DNA from: Granulosicoccaceae bacterium | GTDB taxonomy: Bacteria > Pseudomonadota > Gammaproteobacteria > Granulosicoccales > Granulosicoccaceae | NCBI GenBank assembly: GCA_020629835.1 | Contig: JAHDCO010000006.1 | Coordinates: 1-64,000, forward strand | Direction: 5' to 3' | DNA length: 64,000 nucleotides | Part shown: piece by piece, positions 48,069 through 54,877 of the stretch | Layout: each line of letters starts with the position of its first letter | How positions within the stretch are numbered: position 1 is the first letter of the stretch | Made by a program: the position numbers and the translations under genes | Notes under the pieces: model-generated | The model's input: the letters and a program-made list of their open reading frames with translations, nothing else | Databases searched by the model: none | What the model was told of the DNA's origin: nothing

Positions 48069-49010
48069 CTAGCTTGAGATTTGGTGTTGGCTGAGTCTGA
48101 AACTAGCGGGTGGTTGATCGAAATAGCGTTTAAATACTCTGCCGAATGATGCCTCGGAGGAGTACCCGCTAAGTTGTGCAACCTCAATTATTGGTTTGTT
48201 TGTCTCGGCCAACAAATGCTTCGCAACCTGCATGCGCCAATCGGTTAAGTACGCTAACGGTGTACTGCCCATTAACTCGCTAAATTTATTGGCAAAACTC
48301 GTACGGGATAACCCTGCCACTTTGGCAAGGCTATCCACTGTCCACATATCACCAGGATCACGATGCATCGCTTCTAGAGCACTTCGGATTTTTTGATCGG
48401 CAAAAGCCGCGGTAATATGCCGGTTTTTGCCATCGCCGGAAATGTAAGTGCGGATTGCTTGCGCGAAAATTATCTCTGCTAGCTTGTGTGCAATCAAATC
48501 GCTTCCGAGATCATCCCGACCAACTTCGAAACCGATCATCTTTAAGGATTCATTCAACCAAGTGGGAGATGCTTCGCCGTAGGCACGAAGCAAAATGTAT
48601 TCGGGTAACGCGTCAATCAAAACATGTTCAGCTACTGGATCAAACGCAAAGTGACCGCAGATTAATTGCGTTTCATGATCTGAGTCACTCTCGCCATAAA
48701 TTAGAGCACCCCTTCCGGTGAAACCTGAATCTTCTAGCACGCTATCCAATGATTTGCTTCTGGCATCAGCAGGCTCAGACAGTACATGGCTTGCTCCTTT
48801 GGTGATGATAATAAGATCACCTTGGTTTATTTGTACCGTTTCACCAGCAGTTGGCAGGTGAGCGAAGCATCGACCACGATGTACGTAATGAAATCGAGAA
48901 ACGTTTTGATACTGTGGCACTTCTACACCCCAGGGTGCAGTAAAAGATGTTCGAAAGTACAAAGTACCTGACATCTTTGAGAAACGAAGTATTTCACTTA
49001 GTAAATCCAT
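48069..49010 (-). CDS. AraC family transcriptional regulator (cupin_6 type)
   Basis: A regulator of about 313 residues starting at the ATG at 49010. The N-terminal cupin-like domain has HYVHRGRCFAHLPTAGETVQINQGDLIII, and a linker and two helix-turn-helix units follow. HRDPGDMWTVDSLAKVAGLSRTSFANKF and PIIEVAQLSGYSSEASFGRVFKRYF are the AraC DNA-binding helices. Cupin_6 regulators usually sense small molecules and control an adjacent oxidoreductase or transporter. Here the divergent neighbour is the DUF4142/cupredoxin pair. The track's 17 extra N-terminal residues reach into the control region and are doubtful. Confidence 0.88.
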   Translation of the reverse strand: MDLLSEILRFSKMSGTLYFRTSFTAPWGVEVPQYQNVSRFHYVHRGRCFAHLPTAGETVQINQGDLIIITKGASHVLSEPADARSKSLDSVLEDSGFTGRGALIYGESDSDHETQLICGHFAFDPVAEHVLIDALPEYILLRAYGEASPTWLNESLKMIGFEVGRDDLGSDLIAHKLAEIIFAQAIRTYISGDGKNRHITAAFADQKIRSALEAMHRDPGDMWTVDSLAKVAGLSRTSFANKFSELMGSTPLAYLTDWRMQVAKHLLAETNKPIIEVAQLSGYSSEASFGRVFKRYFDQPPASFRLSQHQISS

Positions 49011-49192
49011 GTAGGAACGATACCGCGTTAATGCGGCTTCCGCTACCGTCCGTTCAAGCACGGGAATGTGAAAATGTACGAATAATCAAAAGTGCTGAAC
49101 GATCGGTCGTGTATGTTGAAAAACCATCCTTAATACTTTGTCTCATGGGGTGTTTGGATATTACAGGCACCGAATTCCATTCGCAAAGCAGG

Positions 49193-49747
49193 ATGAAAAA
49201 ATCAATGAAGACTCTGTATTCAACGCTGGTTATCGGTTTGACTCTTATGGTCGGTTGTGCAACAGCGCAGGCGAACAAACCTTCTGATCTAAATGATCTA
49301 GAAATCGCACATGCGGCGTACACTGCCGACAATATAGACATTAGGTACGCTCATTTAGCGCTAGCAATCTCAGATAACCCGGATATCGTAGAATTTGCAA
49401 AGACTATGATCCGCGATCATGAAGCGGTGAACGAACAAGCTCTTGCACTGTTAGCTAAACTAGAGGTGCAGCCGAAAGATAATTTTCTCAGTCAGCAATT
49501 GACTGTAGGTTCAATAGAACTGATCAATGAAATGAGCCAATTGCGTGGGGTGGAATTCGATAGGCGTTATGCTGAAAATGAATTGGCCTATCACAAAGCG
49601 GTGAATGAAATTGTCAGTAAAGAGTTCATTCCTAATATCGAAAATATGGACGTTAAAGCCTTGTTTGAGCAAGCGTTAGTGATTTTTTTAGCGCATGAAA
49701 AACACGCTGAGATGATGGTCAAGAAACTTTCGAACAAATCCGAGTAG
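49193..49747 (+). CDS. DUF4142 family exported protein
   Basis: A helical protein of about 184 residues. The start is ATG 49193 or 49205, giving a signal peptide with a lipobox-like LMVGC. The mature part matches DUF4142: LEIAHAAYTADNIDIRYAHLALAISDNPDIVEFAKTMIRDHEAVNEQALAL, a four-helix, ferritin-like pattern, closing with HEKHAEMM. The family's function is unknown. Histidines and glutamates at ferritin-like spacing hint at metal binding. It precedes the cupredoxin gene by 2 bases, so they form an operon. The track's start at 48947 overlaps the AraC gene and is rejected. Confidence 0.83.
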   Translation: MKKSMKTLYSTLVIGLTLMVGCATAQANKPSDLNDLEIAHAAYTADNIDIRYAHLALAISDNPDIVEFAKTMIRDHEAVNEQALALLAKLEVQPKDNFLSQQLTVGSIELINEMSQLRGVEFDRRYAENELAYHKAVNEIVSKEFIPNIENMDVKALFEQALVIFLAHEKHAEMMVKKLSNKSE

Positions 49748-49749
49748 AC

Positions 49750-50109
49750 ATGCGAGGGCGAATCGTAACAGGGGCTAGAGTCACAAAAGCTATAGTTGTC
49801 GTAGTTTCAAGTTTTGCTCCGGTTCTGTGGGGAGCAGAGGCAAGCCAAAAGGCTGTTCGGATAACACATTATGTCGAGATTCGAGGGTTTGAATTCAAAC
49901 CTTCGAATCTGTCTGTAAGCCCGGGAGACTCGATAGTCTTCATGAATCTTGACATCGTACCTCATACGGCGACAGCAATTGATAACACTTGGACGACAGA
50001 CACATTAGAGACAGGGGAAACCCAACTAATCACGATCACGTCGGACTCCACGCCTGTGTATTATTGTATTTTCCATCCCTCTATGAACGGATCTCTCGAT
50101 CTTCAATAG
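49750..50109 (+). CDS. exported cupredoxin (plastocyanin-like blue copper protein)
   Basis: A 119-residue periplasmic protein. A signal peptide (IVVVVSSFAPVLWGAEA) is followed by a cupredoxin domain: VEIRGFEFKPSNLSVSPGDSIVFMNLDIVPHTATA and the C-terminal loop CIFHPSM. The type 1 copper ligands H72, C106, H109 and M112 are all present in the expected spacing. Such proteins shuttle electrons or bind copper. It is co-transcribed with the DUF4142 gene and converges on the TetR gene. I see no partner oxidase in the window. Confidence 0.87.
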   Translation: MRGRIVTGARVTKAIVVVVSSFAPVLWGAEASQKAVRITHYVEIRGFEFKPSNLSVSPGDSIVFMNLDIVPHTATAIDNTWTTDTLETGETQLITITSDSTPVYYCIFHPSMNGSLDLQ

Positions 50110-50141: not shown

Positions 50142-50675
50142 TTAAGCCTTCTTGGCGGTTTTCATTGCGTCTCTTATCAATGACGGATCGTCTGATAGTC
50201 GCGCGATCAGTAGCGAGCCCTCTAGCGCACTGACAAAGTTAAATGAGCGGTGTTTGTAGTCTTTGAAACCCATCTCTTTAAATTGTTTTGCAACCCAGGC
50301 TCTCATGTCCTCAAAGTACACTTTTAAGCGTTTTTTGACTGCAGGGCTTACCGATTGCATTTCGGCAGACATCATTCCACAAAGGCAGAATTTTTCCTGT
50401 TCCAGATAGCTCTCAAAAACTTCCACCAGCGTTGTTAGGCGTTTCTCAGGGTTAGAGAACCTAACCTCAAGCTTGCTGAGTGCCGCAACCTGGTCTTCAT
50501 GAGCACGCTCTACTAACGCAAGGGCGAGATCCGCTTTTAATTTGTAGTGGTAATGAACGCTGGCTGTTTTCACGCCAATTTCGTTTGCAAGGTCAATGTA
50601 GCTGAAGCCATTAAACCCTTTGAGTTGGGTCAGCTCTTCGGCCACATCTAATATTCGAGTTTTAGTGTCTGCCAT
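50142..50675 (-). CDS. TetR/AcrR family repressor of the local palindrome regulon
   Basis: A 177-residue regulator. The N-terminal helix-turn-helix is GFNGFSYIDLANEIGVKTASVHYHYKLKADLALAL, and an all-helical ligand domain follows with C in KFCLCGMMSAEM. TetR-type repressors release DNA when a small molecule binds. CLCGMM near residue 99 could make it thiol-sensitive, by analogy to NemR, but that is inference. A 14-base palindrome lies 46 bases upstream of its start and recurs before two neighbouring transcription units. This is the strongest evidence that it controls itself and them. Confidence 0.88.
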   Translation of the reverse strand: MADTKTRILDVAEELTQLKGFNGFSYIDLANEIGVKTASVHYHYKLKADLALALVERAHEDQVAALSKLEVRFSNPEKRLTTLVEVFESYLEQEKFCLCGMMSAEMQSVSPAVKKRLKVYFEDMRAWVAKQFKEMGFKDYKHRSFNFVSALEGSLLIARLSDDPSLIRDAMKTAKKA

Positions 50676-50720
50676 AAGTTGCTTTATCCAAGCTAAATTT
50701 TTTTGGTACTCATTAGATGA

Positions 50721-50734
50721 CTACATACATATAG
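50721..50734. promoter_or_regulatory. TetR-type operator A (upstream of the tetR gene)
   Basis: CTACATACATATAG, an imperfect 14-base palindrome. On the minus strand it is followed after three bases by TCTAAT, a -10-like hexamer, so a bound repressor would cover the -35/-10 spacer of the tetR promoter. The flanks GA and GTA extend the match to other copies. Confidence 0.7.
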
Positions 50735-50804
50735 GTAAAGTATAGCAATTCAACGGAATTAACAAGCAAAAAAATTTCCCATCTCAGATCGAAATTCGGT
50801 ATGG

Positions 50805-50818
50805 CTACATATACGAAG
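50805..50818. promoter_or_regulatory. TetR-type operator A2 (degenerate copy)
   Basis: CTACATATACGAAG, followed by GT, matches the other copies at 11 of 14 positions of site B. The preceding AATTCGGTA is also found before site B, suggesting a shared origin. It is weaker than the other copies and may not be functional. Confidence 0.45.
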
Positions 50819-51202
50819 GTTAATGATTAGAAAAGTAGCGTTGATATCTCTGAATTTGTAGGCTGTCTCTCAGCAAAAAACGTTATTAAGAGGCATCTGA
50901 ATAATTGGCTGGTTTGCTTTAGAGAGATTCTTTTCCAAGTTGTAGTTTGGTGTGTACACGCTATGCGCTTACTGCTAAATAATACGGATAACGCATTTGT
51001 GATTTAGCCAAATCAAGTTTATTGTTGCAAATGGTGGGTTGATTTTAGGCGCTGTGTAGCACAGTACACTGCGATCAATACCGGGGGTGGCAGGGGCTGA
51101 GAAAGGTTGGTCTGCGTTTCGACAACTTACTCTTACTCAACGCCCCAAATCCAACGGACATCGACCATTCCAGCCCAAAAATGGACTAGATAAGTAGATG
51201 TC

Positions 51203-51991
51203 TTATCCCCAGTGGTGCTCTGGCACGTTTTCGCCCACTTGCACCGCCTTTCTAGCATTGAATCGATCCATATAAGCAGAAACGTGCTTGTAGGTTCTAA
51301 GGCCTGTCACCTCATTAGCCTGGTAAAAACGTTCCATACCGTTCAACCATGGTGCGATGGACATGTCGGCAATGGAATAGTCCCCCGCCAACCAATCGCG
51401 CTGACTCAATGCCTGATCCAAGACGTTCAGTAGACGTTTTACTTCATTGGTATACCGCTCTAGTGGACGCTTGTCCTCATACTCTTTACCGGCGAAAGAA
51501 TGGAAGAAGCCAAACTGCCCTGCCATGGGGCCTAATCCACCCATTTGAAACATTAACCACTGTAGTACTTCATAGCGCTGTGCTTCATTATTACCGATGA
51601 ACTTATTGGATTTTTCAGCCAAGTAAATGAGAATAGCGCCGCTTTCAAATAGTCCGAGTGCTTTTCCATCGGGACCGTGAGGGTCAACAATGGCTGGAAT
51701 TTTATTGTTGGGATTTAATGACAAAAACTCAGGGCTGGTAACTCCTTCGTCGTTCAAGGGAATTTTGTGTGCTTCGTACGCTAACCCCGTTTCTTCTAGC
51801 ATGATGGATACTTTCTGCCCATTCGGTGTTGGCATGGAATACAGCTGTATTACGTCAGGGTTCTGGGGTGCCCAGCGCTTCGATATTAAGAAATCGGATA
51901 GAGAATTTGTTTCATTTTTAGGTTTATGAGGCACAACGGGGTTCCTTTTTGTGTAGCGATACTCAAGCGATATGACTTGCTGTGTAGGCAT
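51203..51991 (-). CDS. glutathione S-transferase, nu class (YghU/YfcG-like)
   Basis: A 262-residue cytoplasmic enzyme of the GST superfamily. Its thioredoxin-like half starts at VIQLYSMPTPNGQKVSIMLEE, where T and N replace the usual catalytic Ser/Tyr/Cys. This is a feature of the nu-class disulfide-bond oxidoreductases YghU and YfcG, and FESGAILIYLAEKS carries the glutathione gamma-glutamyl contacts. The helical half contains QMGGLGPMAGQFGFF, also seen in that class. Members reduce disulfides or organic peroxides with glutathione. It follows the AhpD-like gene on the same strand, but a strong hairpin lies between them. Confidence 0.9.
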   Translation of the reverse strand: MPTQQVISLEYRYTKRNPVVPHKPKNETNSLSDFLISKRWAPQNPDVIQLYSMPTPNGQKVSIMLEETGLAYEAHKIPLNDEGVTSPEFLSLNPNNKIPAIVDPHGPDGKALGLFESGAILIYLAEKSNKFIGNNEAQRYEVLQWLMFQMGGLGPMAGQFGFFHSFAGKEYEDKRPLERYTNEVKRLLNVLDQALSQRDWLAGDYSIADMSIAPWLNGMERFYQANEVTGLRTYKHVSAYMDRFNARKAVQVGENVPEHHWG

Positions 51992-52025
51992 CTGAAATAG
52001 TTGGGAACGGGCACAATCAACGTGC

Positions 52026-52061
52026 CCTTAGCCCACGATCACGTTGAACCGTGGGCTAAGG
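52026..52061 (-). terminator. strong hairpin after the AhpD-like gene
   Basis: CCTTAGCCCACG and CGTGGGCTAAGG are perfect 12-base arms around a 12-base loop. It lies between the stop of the AhpD-like gene and the start of the GST gene, both on the minus strand, and would reduce read-through into the GST gene. A shorter repeat, GGGCAC-N7-GTGCCC, overlaps it at 52009-52027. Confidence 0.65.
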
Positions 52062-52082
52062 CATAAAGACACTACTGCTGAA

Positions 52083-52649
52083 TTACGCGACCGCTTGATC
52101 TTTAGTGGTTGGAGCGTACTTCTGGAACGGTGCGTCAATCGGTGTCTGTGCAATGTGATTGCTGTAGTTAGACATCAGCTTCAGGCTGGTGCCCATAATC
52201 ACATCGAGAATATTAGCTTGGGTGAAACCTGCGTTTAAAAACGCCTGAATATCTTCTTCACTAACCCAGCCCCGGGCTTCATTGATTCGACGAGTGAACA
52301 CATGCAGTGCTTCTAGCTTCGGATCAGCGATCGGTGTGCCGTTCCGCAGTGCTTCGATGGTGTCTTCAGGAATGTTCTTCATGTGGGCAGCCATTGTGTG
52401 GGCAGCGGTGCAATAATCGCATTGGTTGAGTTGATTATTGGTCATTAACACAACTTCTTGCTCAATCGGCGTTAAGGTAGTTTTTGTGTAGCTATCGGCC
52501 AAGGCCCAGTAGCCTTCCACCAAAGCAGGTGATTCAGCGAACACCGCAGTTAAATTGGGTATAAAGCCAAAATCCTTCTGCATTCGATCAAAGACTGGCA
52601 GACTGCCTTCAGGTGCCGTTTCAGCGGTGTGTACGGGTAAAATGTTCAT
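52083..52649 (-). CDS. carboxymuconolactone decarboxylase / AhpD-like protein with CxxC
   Basis: A 188-residue protein of the AhpD-like fold. The redox motif C77-D-Y-C80 followed by H84 (QCDYCTAAHTMAAH) is that of alkylhydroperoxidase AhpD and related peroxidase-like proteins and not of true decarboxylases. FGFIPNLTAVFAESPALVEGYWAL and QANILDVIMGTSLKLMSNYSNHI are further blocks of this group. It probably reduces peroxides or relays thiol electrons. It lies 78 bases downstream of the NTF2-like gene and so shares its promoter with operators B and C. Confidence 0.87.
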   Translation of the reverse strand: MNILPVHTAETAPEGSLPVFDRMQKDFGFIPNLTAVFAESPALVEGYWALADSYTKTTLTPIEQEVVLMTNNQLNQCDYCTAAHTMAAHMKNIPEDTIEALRNGTPIADPKLEALHVFTRRINEARGWVSEEDIQAFLNAGFTQANILDVIMGTSLKLMSNYSNHIAQTPIDAPFQKYAPTTKDQAVA

Positions 52650-52727
52650 ATGGATATCCTTTTTTTAATTGGTTGAATTATCGGTTTTGCGAAAAATGGG
52701 TAACTGAACGAAATATTCCAGTGCGAA

Positions 52728-53138
52728 TTAATTGTTGCTGTGCGAGTCGTAAACTTTTCCACTGATCTTCCACTCACCATCGTGTTGGTAGAGCACGAAG
52801 TAATCGGTGAAACGCAAACCACCCCAGTGGATAAATTCCACCTTTGCAGCAGCAGCTGGCCCAGAGATATCGATCCAAGCAATGTGGTGTTGAACTTCGG
52901 GAGCTGGGCCACCCTCGGTCACGGCACCTTTAAATTCATCGGCGCTCATGTTGTAGAACTCGCCCTGTACTGAGCCAACAATGTGGGCGTGATCGAAGAA
53001 AGCGGTGCGGGTTAATGCGCCATCGCCTGTTTTAGCCGAGTCGATATAAGGTTTAAGCGCCGCCTCAACCGCTTTATATGCAGCAAAGTTATGGGCCTCA
53101 TCGGCTTGTGTTTCTTTAGAGATTTCAGCTTGTGACAT
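52728..53138 (-). CDS. NTF2-like / lumazine-binding-like protein
   Basis: A 136-residue cytoplasmic protein with the cone-shaped NTF2/SnoaL-type pattern: AYKAVEAALKPYIDSAKTGDGALTRTAFFDHAHIVGSVQGEF, IAWIDISGPAAAAKVEF and DYFVLYQHDGEWKISGKVY. This subgroup is often named putative lumazine-binding. Such proteins can be small enzymes (isomerases, cyclases) or ligand binders. It is the first gene of the unit read from the promoter carrying operator B. The reaction is unknown, but the company of GST and AhpD-like proteins suggests handling of reactive small molecules. Confidence 0.85.
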   Translation of the reverse strand: MSQAEISKETQADEAHNFAAYKAVEAALKPYIDSAKTGDGALTRTAFFDHAHIVGSVQGEFYNMSADEFKGAVTEGGPAPEVQHHIAWIDISGPAAAAKVEFIHWGGLRFTDYFVLYQHDGEWKISGKVYDSHSNN

Positions 53139-53260
53139 GATGTAAGTCCTTATTGGTTAATGTGATAACAGAAAAAATTTAGGTGCTATTAGCGAAGTGC
53201 GTACCGTCGATGATTACATTCATCGGAGTTCTCATTTCGCCAATTCGGTAAAATATATAT

Positions 53261-53274
53261 CTACATATAAATAG
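53261..53274. promoter_or_regulatory. TetR-type operator B (NTF2-like unit)
   Basis: CTACATATAAATAG. On the minus strand the palindrome is followed, after three bases, by TATATT, a -10-like hexamer, the same geometry as at sites A and D. It lies 123 bases upstream of the NTF2-like start. Confidence 0.7.
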
Positions 53275-53366
53275 GTGATTGGCCCAAAAGATTAATTAAT
53301 GTTCTATCTTCAGGATATTGAAAAATTGGAAATTTTCCGACTTCGTTTCAAGTAATATCGACAACT

Positions 53367-53384
53367 ACCTACATATTTATAGGT
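53367..53384. promoter_or_regulatory. TetR-type operator C
   Basis: ACCTACATATTTATAGGT, with perfect ACCTA/TAGGT outer arms, is the most symmetric copy. No -10-like hexamer follows at the fixed distance on the minus strand, so it may be an auxiliary site about 108 bases from B. Confidence 0.65.
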
Positions 53385-53484
53385 ACAAAAAGCCAAATGC
53401 AAGCGAATTTGTGAGATAAATCGACTTTGTTTAAAGCTTAGGAGATGATTGTTCATCTACTTGTGCTTTTGCGACTGGGTTTGC

Positions 53485-53667
53485 TCAGTCGATCAACACA
53501 GGTTCCTGCTCGATATCAACAGATACGCTGGAATCCAGATCAGTATCGAAAAACTCAGTTACATCGAAACTAGAGTCATAGCGTTCTCTAAGCAAAAAGC
53601 TCAGTTCAATATCGATGTTTGAAATCTCAACGTCGCCAAGTGTGAGGTGGTCAAATTGTGGGTTCAT
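53485..53667 (-). CDS. small acidic protein, uncertain
   Basis: A 60-residue frame starting at ATG with AGAGA 8 bases upstream. The peptide is very acidic (VTEFFDTDLDSSVSVDIEQEP) and has no signal peptide or known motif. It lies downstream of the small exported protein gene on the same strand (152 bases), so it could be the second gene of that unit. Coding is plausible but not certain, because the composition could also arise by chance in AT-rich DNA. Confidence 0.4.
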   Translation of the reverse strand: MNPQFDHLTLGDVEISNIDIELSFLLRERYDSSFDVTEFFDTDLDSSVSVDIEQEPVLID

Positions 53668-53819
53668 GTGTTGTCTCTGTTAGGTTAGATAGTTCTGATT
53701 TAAATTGTTGAAATGGTGTAGACGGTCGAATCGTAAATGTTTTGATAAAAGTAGTCGTCTGTACTAGGAAAATCTGTTGTTTACTAGAAGTAGTTACCAG
53801 GGAACGGACGATGCTCATT

Positions 53820-54098
53820 TTATGTCTCGCGATTTCTTTCACAGCGTAACTGGTGAGCCGCAAGCGATCCTAGGCTATAAACGCCGTCATTCAATTGACA
53901 AACCTGTGGCAGCCGATCGTTGTAGAAAGACCGATTCGTATCATCGATGAGTGGCGGATTTGACACGCTAGGTGATTCTGATTGGGCAGTTTTTCCGCTG
54001 GAGAAAGGATCAGATGGATTGCCGTAGTTAGAACTCACGGTAGCTACCGTCGATAGGAGAACAAATCCAAGAAAAAAATGCTGTTTGTTGGTTTTCAT
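53820..54098 (-). CDS. small exported protein under operator D
   Basis: A 92-residue protein. The ATG at 54098 has AAGGAA upstream and gives a clear Sec signal peptide (MKTNKQHFFLGFVLLSTVATVSS). The mature part of about 68 residues is Ser/Asn/Pro-rich with two cysteines (VCQLNDGVYSLGSLAAHQLRCE) that could form a disulfide. I do not recognise the family. A TATAAT and operator D stand just upstream, so it is probably repressed by the TetR protein. The track start at 54134 adds 12 residues without a ribosome binding site. Confidence 0.7.
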   Translation of the reverse strand: MKTNKQHFFLGFVLLSTVATVSSNYGNPSDPFSSGKTAQSESPSVSNPPLIDDTNRSFYNDRLPQVCQLNDGVYSLGSLAAHQLRCERNRET

Positions 54099-54161
54099 GA
54101 AGGTTCCTTGACACGAGATATTTGCGATTGCCAATACGTTGGTATTGATGAAAGCAAAATC

Positions 54162-54184
54162 ATTATATATCTATATGTATATAG
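54162..54184 (-). promoter_or_regulatory. promoter with TetR-type operator D
   Basis: The operator CTATATGTATATAG (54171-54184) is followed on the minus strand by three bases and a perfect TATAAT (54167-54162). The operator therefore fills the spacer of the promoter for the small exported protein, whose ATG is 63 bases further. No good -35 is seen. Confidence 0.72.
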
Positions 54185-54198
54185 AACTCGTAGTGTTT

Positions 54199-54231
54199 AA
54201 AAAACCTGTTGAGCTGCGGACCCAACAGGTT
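54199..54231 (-). terminator. intrinsic terminator after the araC remnant
   Basis: On the minus strand AACCTGTTG, an 11-base loop, CAACAGGTT and then TTTT give a 9-base stem with a run of six T (two within the stem). This is a textbook Rho-independent terminator. It ends transcription coming from the araC remnant before the operator D promoter. Confidence 0.8.
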
Positions 54232-54277
54232 AATGAGTTAGAAAAATCCAGTAAAAATTACCTACAAGTCCATATAC

Positions 54278-54291
54278 CTATATGTATATAG
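54278..54291. promoter_or_regulatory. TetR-type operator E
   Basis: CTATATGTATATAG, identical to site D over all 14 bases, lies 107 bases away on the other side of the terminator. No -10 hexamer sits at the fixed distance. It may be auxiliary, for looping, or a relic of a duplicated promoter. Confidence 0.65.
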
Positions 54292-54376
54292 AATAATTTA
54301 GTAAAATGCAAGTTTTCAGGTGGAAAAAATTCTTTATTGCCAACTCGCGGGCTAAAATTTGAACAATTCTTGGGGG

Positions 54377-54877
54377 TTATGAATTTCTGAACTCTTTGAA
54401 TTGCGTTAGCCACTCTCGAGGTGTTTGGCCGGTACGACGTCGAAATGTGCGCGTGAAGGCGGCAGAATCTTTGTATCCGACCTGTCTGGCGGCGGTTGCC
54501 ACCGACAAGCCACTGCGCAGCAGGCTCCTTGCCACGCCAAACCGCCAGTCGGTGAGATAGTCCAATGGGGTAGAGCCGACTGACTCTCTAAAATATCGTG
54601 CAAAGCTCGACCGTGACATTGCCGCTTGTTGTGCAAGAGTTTCTAGCGTCCATGGTTTTTCAGGATGGTCGTGTATTGCCGTGATCGCGCACGCCAGGCG
54701 TTCATCGCCGAGGCTACTCAATATACAGGTGGGCACTTGGCTGTTTTACATTACATGCCTGAGCAATAAGATGAGCATGTATTCCATTAAAAGTTCTAGA
54801 GCCGTCTCACGTTCACAAACATTACCATCGGCTTCAACAAACATACACCGCTTTGTCGGCAGAGATCTGGGGTGGGG
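54377..54877 (-). pseudogene. decayed AraC family regulator with in-frame stop
   Basis: The track frame (54377-54736, GTG start) encodes only the C-terminal DNA-binding domain: DHPEKPWTLETLAQQAAMSRSSFARYF and ATAARQVGYKDSAAFTRTFRRR. Reading upstream in the same frame through a TAA at 54748-54750, the minus strand continues MFVEADGNVCERETALELLM then EYMLILLLRHVM. This is the end of the cupin domain and linker seen in full-length relatives. The next in-frame stop is at 54878. Most of the sensor domain (about 150 residues) is missing and seems to include an internal deletion. I read this as a dying gene whose DNA-binding part could still be made. Confidence 0.7.

Follow-up and report, generated by a model that had tools for sequence, protein, structure and literature searches.

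The window analysed here is a stretch of 64,000 nucleotides from a marine bacterium of the Granulosicoccaceae (GenBank assembly GCA_020629835.1, contig JAHDCO010000006.1, positions 1 to 64,000 of the forward strand). It contains a block of genes, all on the minus strand, in which the gene for a TetR-family repressor (50142..50675, 177 aa, TetR_N plus a TetR_C_13 domain of the LmrA/YxaF type) is found with genes for a glutathione S-transferase (GST), an AhpD-like protein and an NTF2-like protein, two small open reading frames (ORFs) and several copies of one palindrome. An earlier reading, made from the letters alone and referred to below as the sequence-only reading, had proposed a compact TetR regulon built on this palindrome, with five clear copies and a sixth degenerate one within 3.6 kb. 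All six copies were recovered, and the proposal of a regulon is supported by the orthologous loci described below.

Predicted operators in the window

Genome-wide counts were obtained with pattern scans in which mismatches were allowed. The 4.34 Mb genome has five matches to the 14-mer CTAYATRYATRTAG with at most one mismatch, all inside the 3.6-kb block, and the 18-mer AYCTAYATRYATRTAGRT, with up to two mismatches, finds these five sites only. Three copies of the 14-mer are perfect (50721, 54171 and 54278), two have one mismatch (53261 and 53369) and one has two (50805). The five sites together span 3,571 bp and score 22.0-24.7 bits with a matrix derived from the sites of the window locus and its orthologues (37 training sites, the five window sites among them). 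At the cut-off of 14 bits, no other site was present in the 64-kb window, and 512 kb of shuffled window sequence contained none.

The predicted operators are listed on the minus strand. T1 (14-mer 50721-50734, no mismatches; 18-mer 50719..50736; ACCTATATGTATGTAGTC) precedes the TetR start by about 46 bp and follows closely on an extended -10-like element, TGCTATACT. The degenerate copy, T2 (50805-50818, two mismatches), is 84 bp from T1 and falls under the matrix threshold, and its status as an operator is doubtful. Paired sites precede the NTF2-like gene and a 92-aa ORF, and the TetR gene has one good and one poor site. The NTF2-like gene has a proximal site, N1 (14-mer 53261-53274, one mismatch; 18-mer 53259..53276), and a distal site, N2 (14-mer 53369-53382, one mismatch; 18-mer 53367..53384), which are 108 bp apart, and N2 overlies the -10 element of a CTTGCA-16-TATAAA promoter. 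The arrangement at the 92-aa ORF is similar, with E1 (14-mer 54171-54184, no mismatches; 18-mer 54169..54186) proximal and E2 (14-mer 54278-54291, no mismatches; 18-mer 54276..54293) distal, 107 bp apart, and E2 overlying the -10 element of a CTTGCA-16-TATATA promoter. As the sites lie on or near -10 elements, their placement points to repression, and this overlap with promoters is our reason for regarding the TetR protein as a likely repressor. The spacings correspond to 8.0, 10.2 and 10.3 helical turns, which are near-integral and compatible with looping, although no proof can be drawn from three cases. The sites can also be read around a second dyad, shifted by 2 bp (means of 6.5 and 6.0 of 9 pairs), so that two symmetry registers are possible.

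The palindrome in orthologous loci

One genome per species was scanned with the TetR pair, and 18 orthologous loci, with TetR proteins 42-64 % identical, were found in Alphaproteobacteria, Gammaproteobacteria, Cyanobacteria and one chlamydial metagenome-assembled genome. When the window motif was applied unchanged to the 272 kb of these loci, 32 sites with at most one mismatch were found. All 32 are no more than 1.7 kb from the TetR gene and 28 are within 250 bp, while ten shuffles of the same 272 kb gave no site. With the matrix at 14 bits, a putative operator is found at the TetR gene's own promoter, no more than 70 bp upstream of the gene, in 15 of the 18 loci, as T1 is in the window, and 16 of the 18 have a site before the following gene. 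In L038, L039 and L047 the operators overlap a -10-like element, TTGACT-16-TATCTA. In 15 related genomes, 18-mer matches without mismatch were found at the TetR locus, the one exception being G063 (Tateyamaria), in which a further locus at a distance of about 15 kb has a second pair of good operators (C1:244196-244976). The sequence-only reading had named loci with the same genes but no palindrome as the observation that would count against it; in the orthologous loci the palindrome is retained along with the genes. By computation, the sites are confined to this locus and are inherited together with this TetR across phyla.

The possibility that the motif is a product of AT-rich sequence or of a repeat family was considered, as both the sites and the intergenic DNA around them are rich in AT. 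However, there is no other site in 4.34 Mb, none was found in the shuffles, and the motif is conserved across phyla, including at loci of 50-64 % GC, so that the chance of such an artefact is practically nil. A chance origin was rejected on the basis of genome-wide uniqueness and the absence of sites from the shuffled orthologous loci.

The operator appears to track the regulator and not its target, as seen in G015, a congener of the window genome: its NTF2-like gene (69 %) has no operator nearby, and the best TetR relatives in that genome are only about 36 % identical. More distant TetR relatives (30-37 %) have a related but different dyad, CTACCTACTAGTAGGTAG. Palindromes of this type were seen near their own TetR genes in L010, L011, L016, L018, L024 and L030, all from the same family of bacteria, and they suggest a wider operator family for TetR proteins with CLCGMM or CLAGMM.

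The TetR clade is rare. A class-wide profile search of 369 genomes gave two matches, the window's own protein and one divergent relative, and a search of 298 genomes of the Roseovarius family gave one match; neither set contained a further close orthologue. A search of a plasmid collection for this TetR gave only relatives of 29-37 % identity and no orthologue. In the TetR tree the window protein falls together with L050 (98) and apart from L036, the other Granulosicoccaceae locus (genome G009), which is from the same genus. This grouping suggests horizontal spread, and the system is patchily distributed, with horizontal spread probable.

Genes accompanying the regulator

The NTF2-like gene (52728..53138, minus strand, 136 aa, Pfam Lumazine_bd_2) is the conserved core target of the predicted regulon. 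It is the gene after TetR in all of the 18 loci but L033, L034 and L049, and the protein is 56-73 % identical over 16 relatives, with a fold close to 3blz, 3fka and 3duk. The sequence-only reading had called it a lumazine-like binder, but 'lumazine' comes only from the name of the Pfam family, and the fold is that of NTF2. In L033 and L034, from filamentous cyanobacteria, the next gene is instead for a 147-aa membrane-like protein with no Pfam match. Paralogues of the NTF2-like protein with signal peptides are encoded in L040 (6880-7353), L042 (6909-7580), L048 (7275-7748) and L050 (3704-4207), and those of L040, L042 and L048 are divergent from TetR and have their own operator.

The remaining genes of the window block are as first described, apart from the GST start. 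The AhpD-like protein (52083..52649, minus strand, 188 aa) is related to carboxymuconolactone decarboxylases (CMD) and peroxidases, has a CDYC motif and matches 6e8l (2e-39). The nu-class-like GST of the YghU/YfcG group (51203..51991, minus strand) was listed with an ATG at 51991, and its probable start is an in-frame GTG near 51934 with the ribosome-binding site AAGGAA. Its sequence is related to structures of the YghU/YfcG group (4nax, 3e-87; YfcG 5hfk, 4e-46; YghU 3c8e, 1e-40). Between these two genes, at 52010-52060, is a hairpin, TTAGCCCACG...CGTGGGCTAA, possibly an attenuator or a repeat element. On the other side of the TetR gene, and convergent with it, a small exported cupredoxin-like gene (49750-50109) lies downstream of a putative exported gene (48947-49747, plus strand).

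Other genes with their own operators were found in the orthologous loci, namely an Old Yellow Enzyme (OYE) in L038 and L039, a zinc-dependent alcohol dehydrogenase (Zn-ADH) in L039, a peroxiredoxin-like protein and a short-chain dehydrogenase/reductase (SDR) in L037, and an exported DUF3237 protein in L036. The OYE of L038 and L039 scores 377 bits with the N-ethylmaleimide reductase model (cut-off 403), and L050 holds an OYE and a glyoxalase. The same clusters include genes for glyoxalase I-like proteins, a PIG3-type quinone reductase, GST and AhpD-like proteins. Taken together, OYE, glyoxalase I-like, quinone reductase, GST, AhpD-like and peroxiredoxin-like proteins are a gene set of an electrophile/oxidant response, and the detoxification role that had been proposed from the window alone is strengthened by their presence.

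The two small ORFs are outside this conserved core. The 92-aa ORF (53820..54098, minus strand) has a signal-peptide-like N-terminus and a ribosome-binding site, and no relative was found in 27 genomes of the genus; a search with the acidic 60-aa ORF (53485..53667, minus strand) found none either. The small exported protein, which the sequence-only reading had placed in the system, is an orphan and may or may not belong to the regulon. A strong intrinsic terminator (54193..54231, minus strand; 12-bp stem and UUUUUU; CCTGTTGGGTCCGCAGCTCAACAGG-TTTTTT) lies between E1 and E2. Given this position, it is possible, though less likely than not, that E1 and E2 do not serve the exported protein: transcription from E2 may yield a short terminated RNA of about 80 nt, or the terminator may belong to the transcript of an AraC remnant, with E2 left over. 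The good promoter under E2 and the lack of relatives of the ORF fit this alternative, while the closeness of E1 to an ORF with a signal-like N-terminus and a ribosome-binding site does not. Also against it, Rfam has no match in the block and the arrangement was seen in no related locus. Either outcome would be compatible with regulation by the TetR protein.

Proposed sensing by the TetR protein and significance

The assignment of the regulator to the TetR family is secure, with a TetR_N helix-turn-helix and a TetR_C_13-type ligand domain both present (PF00440, 33.1 bits, cut-off 24; PF21993, 32.4 bits, cut-off 27; PF16925, 28.8 bits, cut-off 27). No NCBIfam TetR model, including the NemR equivalog, came near its cut-off. 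The AlphaFold model is all-helical (pLDDT 90), and the closest solved relatives in both sequence and fold are the Legionella pneumophila protein 3on4 (about 30 % identity), which has the nearest fold (template-modelling (TM) score 0.93), and the Agrobacterium tumefaciens protein 2g7s (about 22 %). Among the fold matches, the nearest functionally characterised redox sensor is Escherichia coli NemR (4yze, TM 0.85), in which Cys106 senses reactive chlorine (PMC5297802, PMC7464077). The CLCGMM stretch, residues 97-102, had been suggested as a thiol sensor. C97 aligns with NemR Cys106, and C97 and C99 are invariant in 19 of 19 TetR orthologues, which lends that suggestion weight. However, a C97-type cysteine is common in distant TetR relatives too, so that thiol sensing, like the class of inducer, is a proposal. 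A C97-C99 bond or alkylation of C97 would be the candidate sensing chemistry.

The best explanation is, in our view, that the locus encodes an autoregulated NemR-like TetR repressor of a local electrophile/oxidant-detoxification regulon, which we consider rather probable. A TetR dimer would bind AYCTAYATRYATRTAGRT where the palindrome overlies the -10/start region of a promoter, be it that of its own gene, that of the small ORFs upstream or that of the NTF2-like/AhpD-like(/GST) unit. A quinone, aldehyde, organic peroxide or hypohalous acid, acting as a thiol-reactive electrophile or oxidant, would modify the invariant C97/C99, located where helix 6 begins, or would occupy the pocket beside them; TetR would then come off the DNA and the detoxification genes would be turned on. 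The working would then resemble that of NemR on nemRA-gloA, but with a separate TetR clade, its own operator and an NTF2-like core effector.

The likeness to nemRA-gloA includes a TetR repressor adjoining detoxification genes, the counterpart of Cys106, and the NemA-like OYE and glyoxalase I-like genes of the orthologous clusters. In contrast, identity to NemR is about 20-23 %, and there are several separate operators per locus. Several observations weigh against the explanation. NemR Lys175, Cys21 and Cys116 are replaced by L156, T16 and Q107, so a NemR-type sulfenamide cannot be assumed and the NemR chemistry is not transferable unchanged, and the widespread occurrence of the C97-type cysteine means that it need not be a sensor. 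OYE and glyoxalase genes of the nemA/gloA type are missing at the window locus, and the OYE found elsewhere in the window genome has no operator. In L035, TetR and the NTF2-like gene are retained but the site, though still in its place, is degenerate, and L049 has neither the usual sites nor the partner gene.

A different account, possible but clearly less favoured, is that the TetR protein senses one specific metabolite non-covalently and that the clusters serve catabolism (through dehydrogenases, a quinone reductase, an SDR, a metallo-hydrolase and an NTF2-like isomerase/hydratase) and not a general electrophile response, with derepression by a ligand as in LmrA/YxaF (QdoR) with flavonoids. 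The match to TetR_C_13_2 (LmrA/YxaF) in the C-terminal part is above the cut-off, Bacillus subtilis LmrA and YxaF have the same Pfam C-terminal families (TetR_C_13 and TetR_C_13_2), and Zn-ADH, SDR and metallo-hydrolase (MBL) genes are present in the clusters. NTF2-like folds often bind or isomerise small organic molecules. QdoR is autoregulated and has a target promoter with two operators (PMC8481877), the arrangement predicted in the window. However, sequence similarity is weak (1sgm, E 5e-4) and the target of QdoR is a quercetin dioxygenase. A second TetR, most like the acrylate regulator AcuR, is found in six loci, and together with the metallo-hydrolase in some roseobacter clusters it leaves room for a catabolic role, but neither it nor the MBL genes have an operator of the present type, and the repeated presence of GST, AhpD-like, peroxiredoxin-like, OYE and glyoxalase genes is more in keeping with detoxification than with a single pathway.

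Binding of the palindromes by another regulator, such as the neighbouring AraC/RclR-like protein, with the TetR protein a bystander, is very improbable. The window does contain an intact AraC/Cupin_6 gene (48069-49061) and an AraC remnant (54377-54736, C-terminal helix-turn-helix only), both nearest the reactive-chlorine regulator RclR and below its cut-off, and L044 has an AraC relative near the TetR locus. But the palindrome accompanies TetR at nearly all of the 18 orthologous loci, of which only one has that AraC gene, no such operator was found beside the AraC gene of the window, and an 18-bp dyad at the tetR start is the usual TetR arrangement. Pseudomonas aeruginosa RclR/rclX resembles the window locus in having an AhpD-family effector, there induced by HOCl/HOSCN (PMC7950407), and in the RclR-like AraC gene that adjoins the locus, but RclR is of AraC type.

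The observation is real and the regulatory reading is well supported, as a TetR-controlled local detoxification regulon that is NemR-like in its working and not a NemR. In the literature that was searched, no description of a TetR regulon with NTF2-like, OYE, GST or AhpD-like genes was found, and the system seems to be a relative, so far undescribed, of the response of E. coli NemR to reactive chemicals. Granulosicoccus is among the dominant bacteria of kelp surfaces (PMC9238374), which makes oxidants and phenolics from algae a plausible stimulus in nature. A bolder version, which we think unlikely, would see the locus as the type of a marine module for detoxification that moves between phyla. 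The NTF2-like protein, found in the cytoplasm and in some species exported as well, would be an enzyme or scavenger not yet described that acts on a single class of electrophile (e.g. halogenated or oxidised algal compounds), the NemR-like TetR with its own operator would be the sensor, and in the window genome a short terminated RNA would also be controlled from E2.

An uncharacterised TetR clade gains a testable operator, a regulon and a likely inducer class in one step, and an NTF2-like family with structures but no function (3blz, 3fka, 3duk) is linked to electrophile stress. As the operator is nearly unique in each genome, the prediction is testable by few assays, and the promoter/TetR pair could become a biosensor part.

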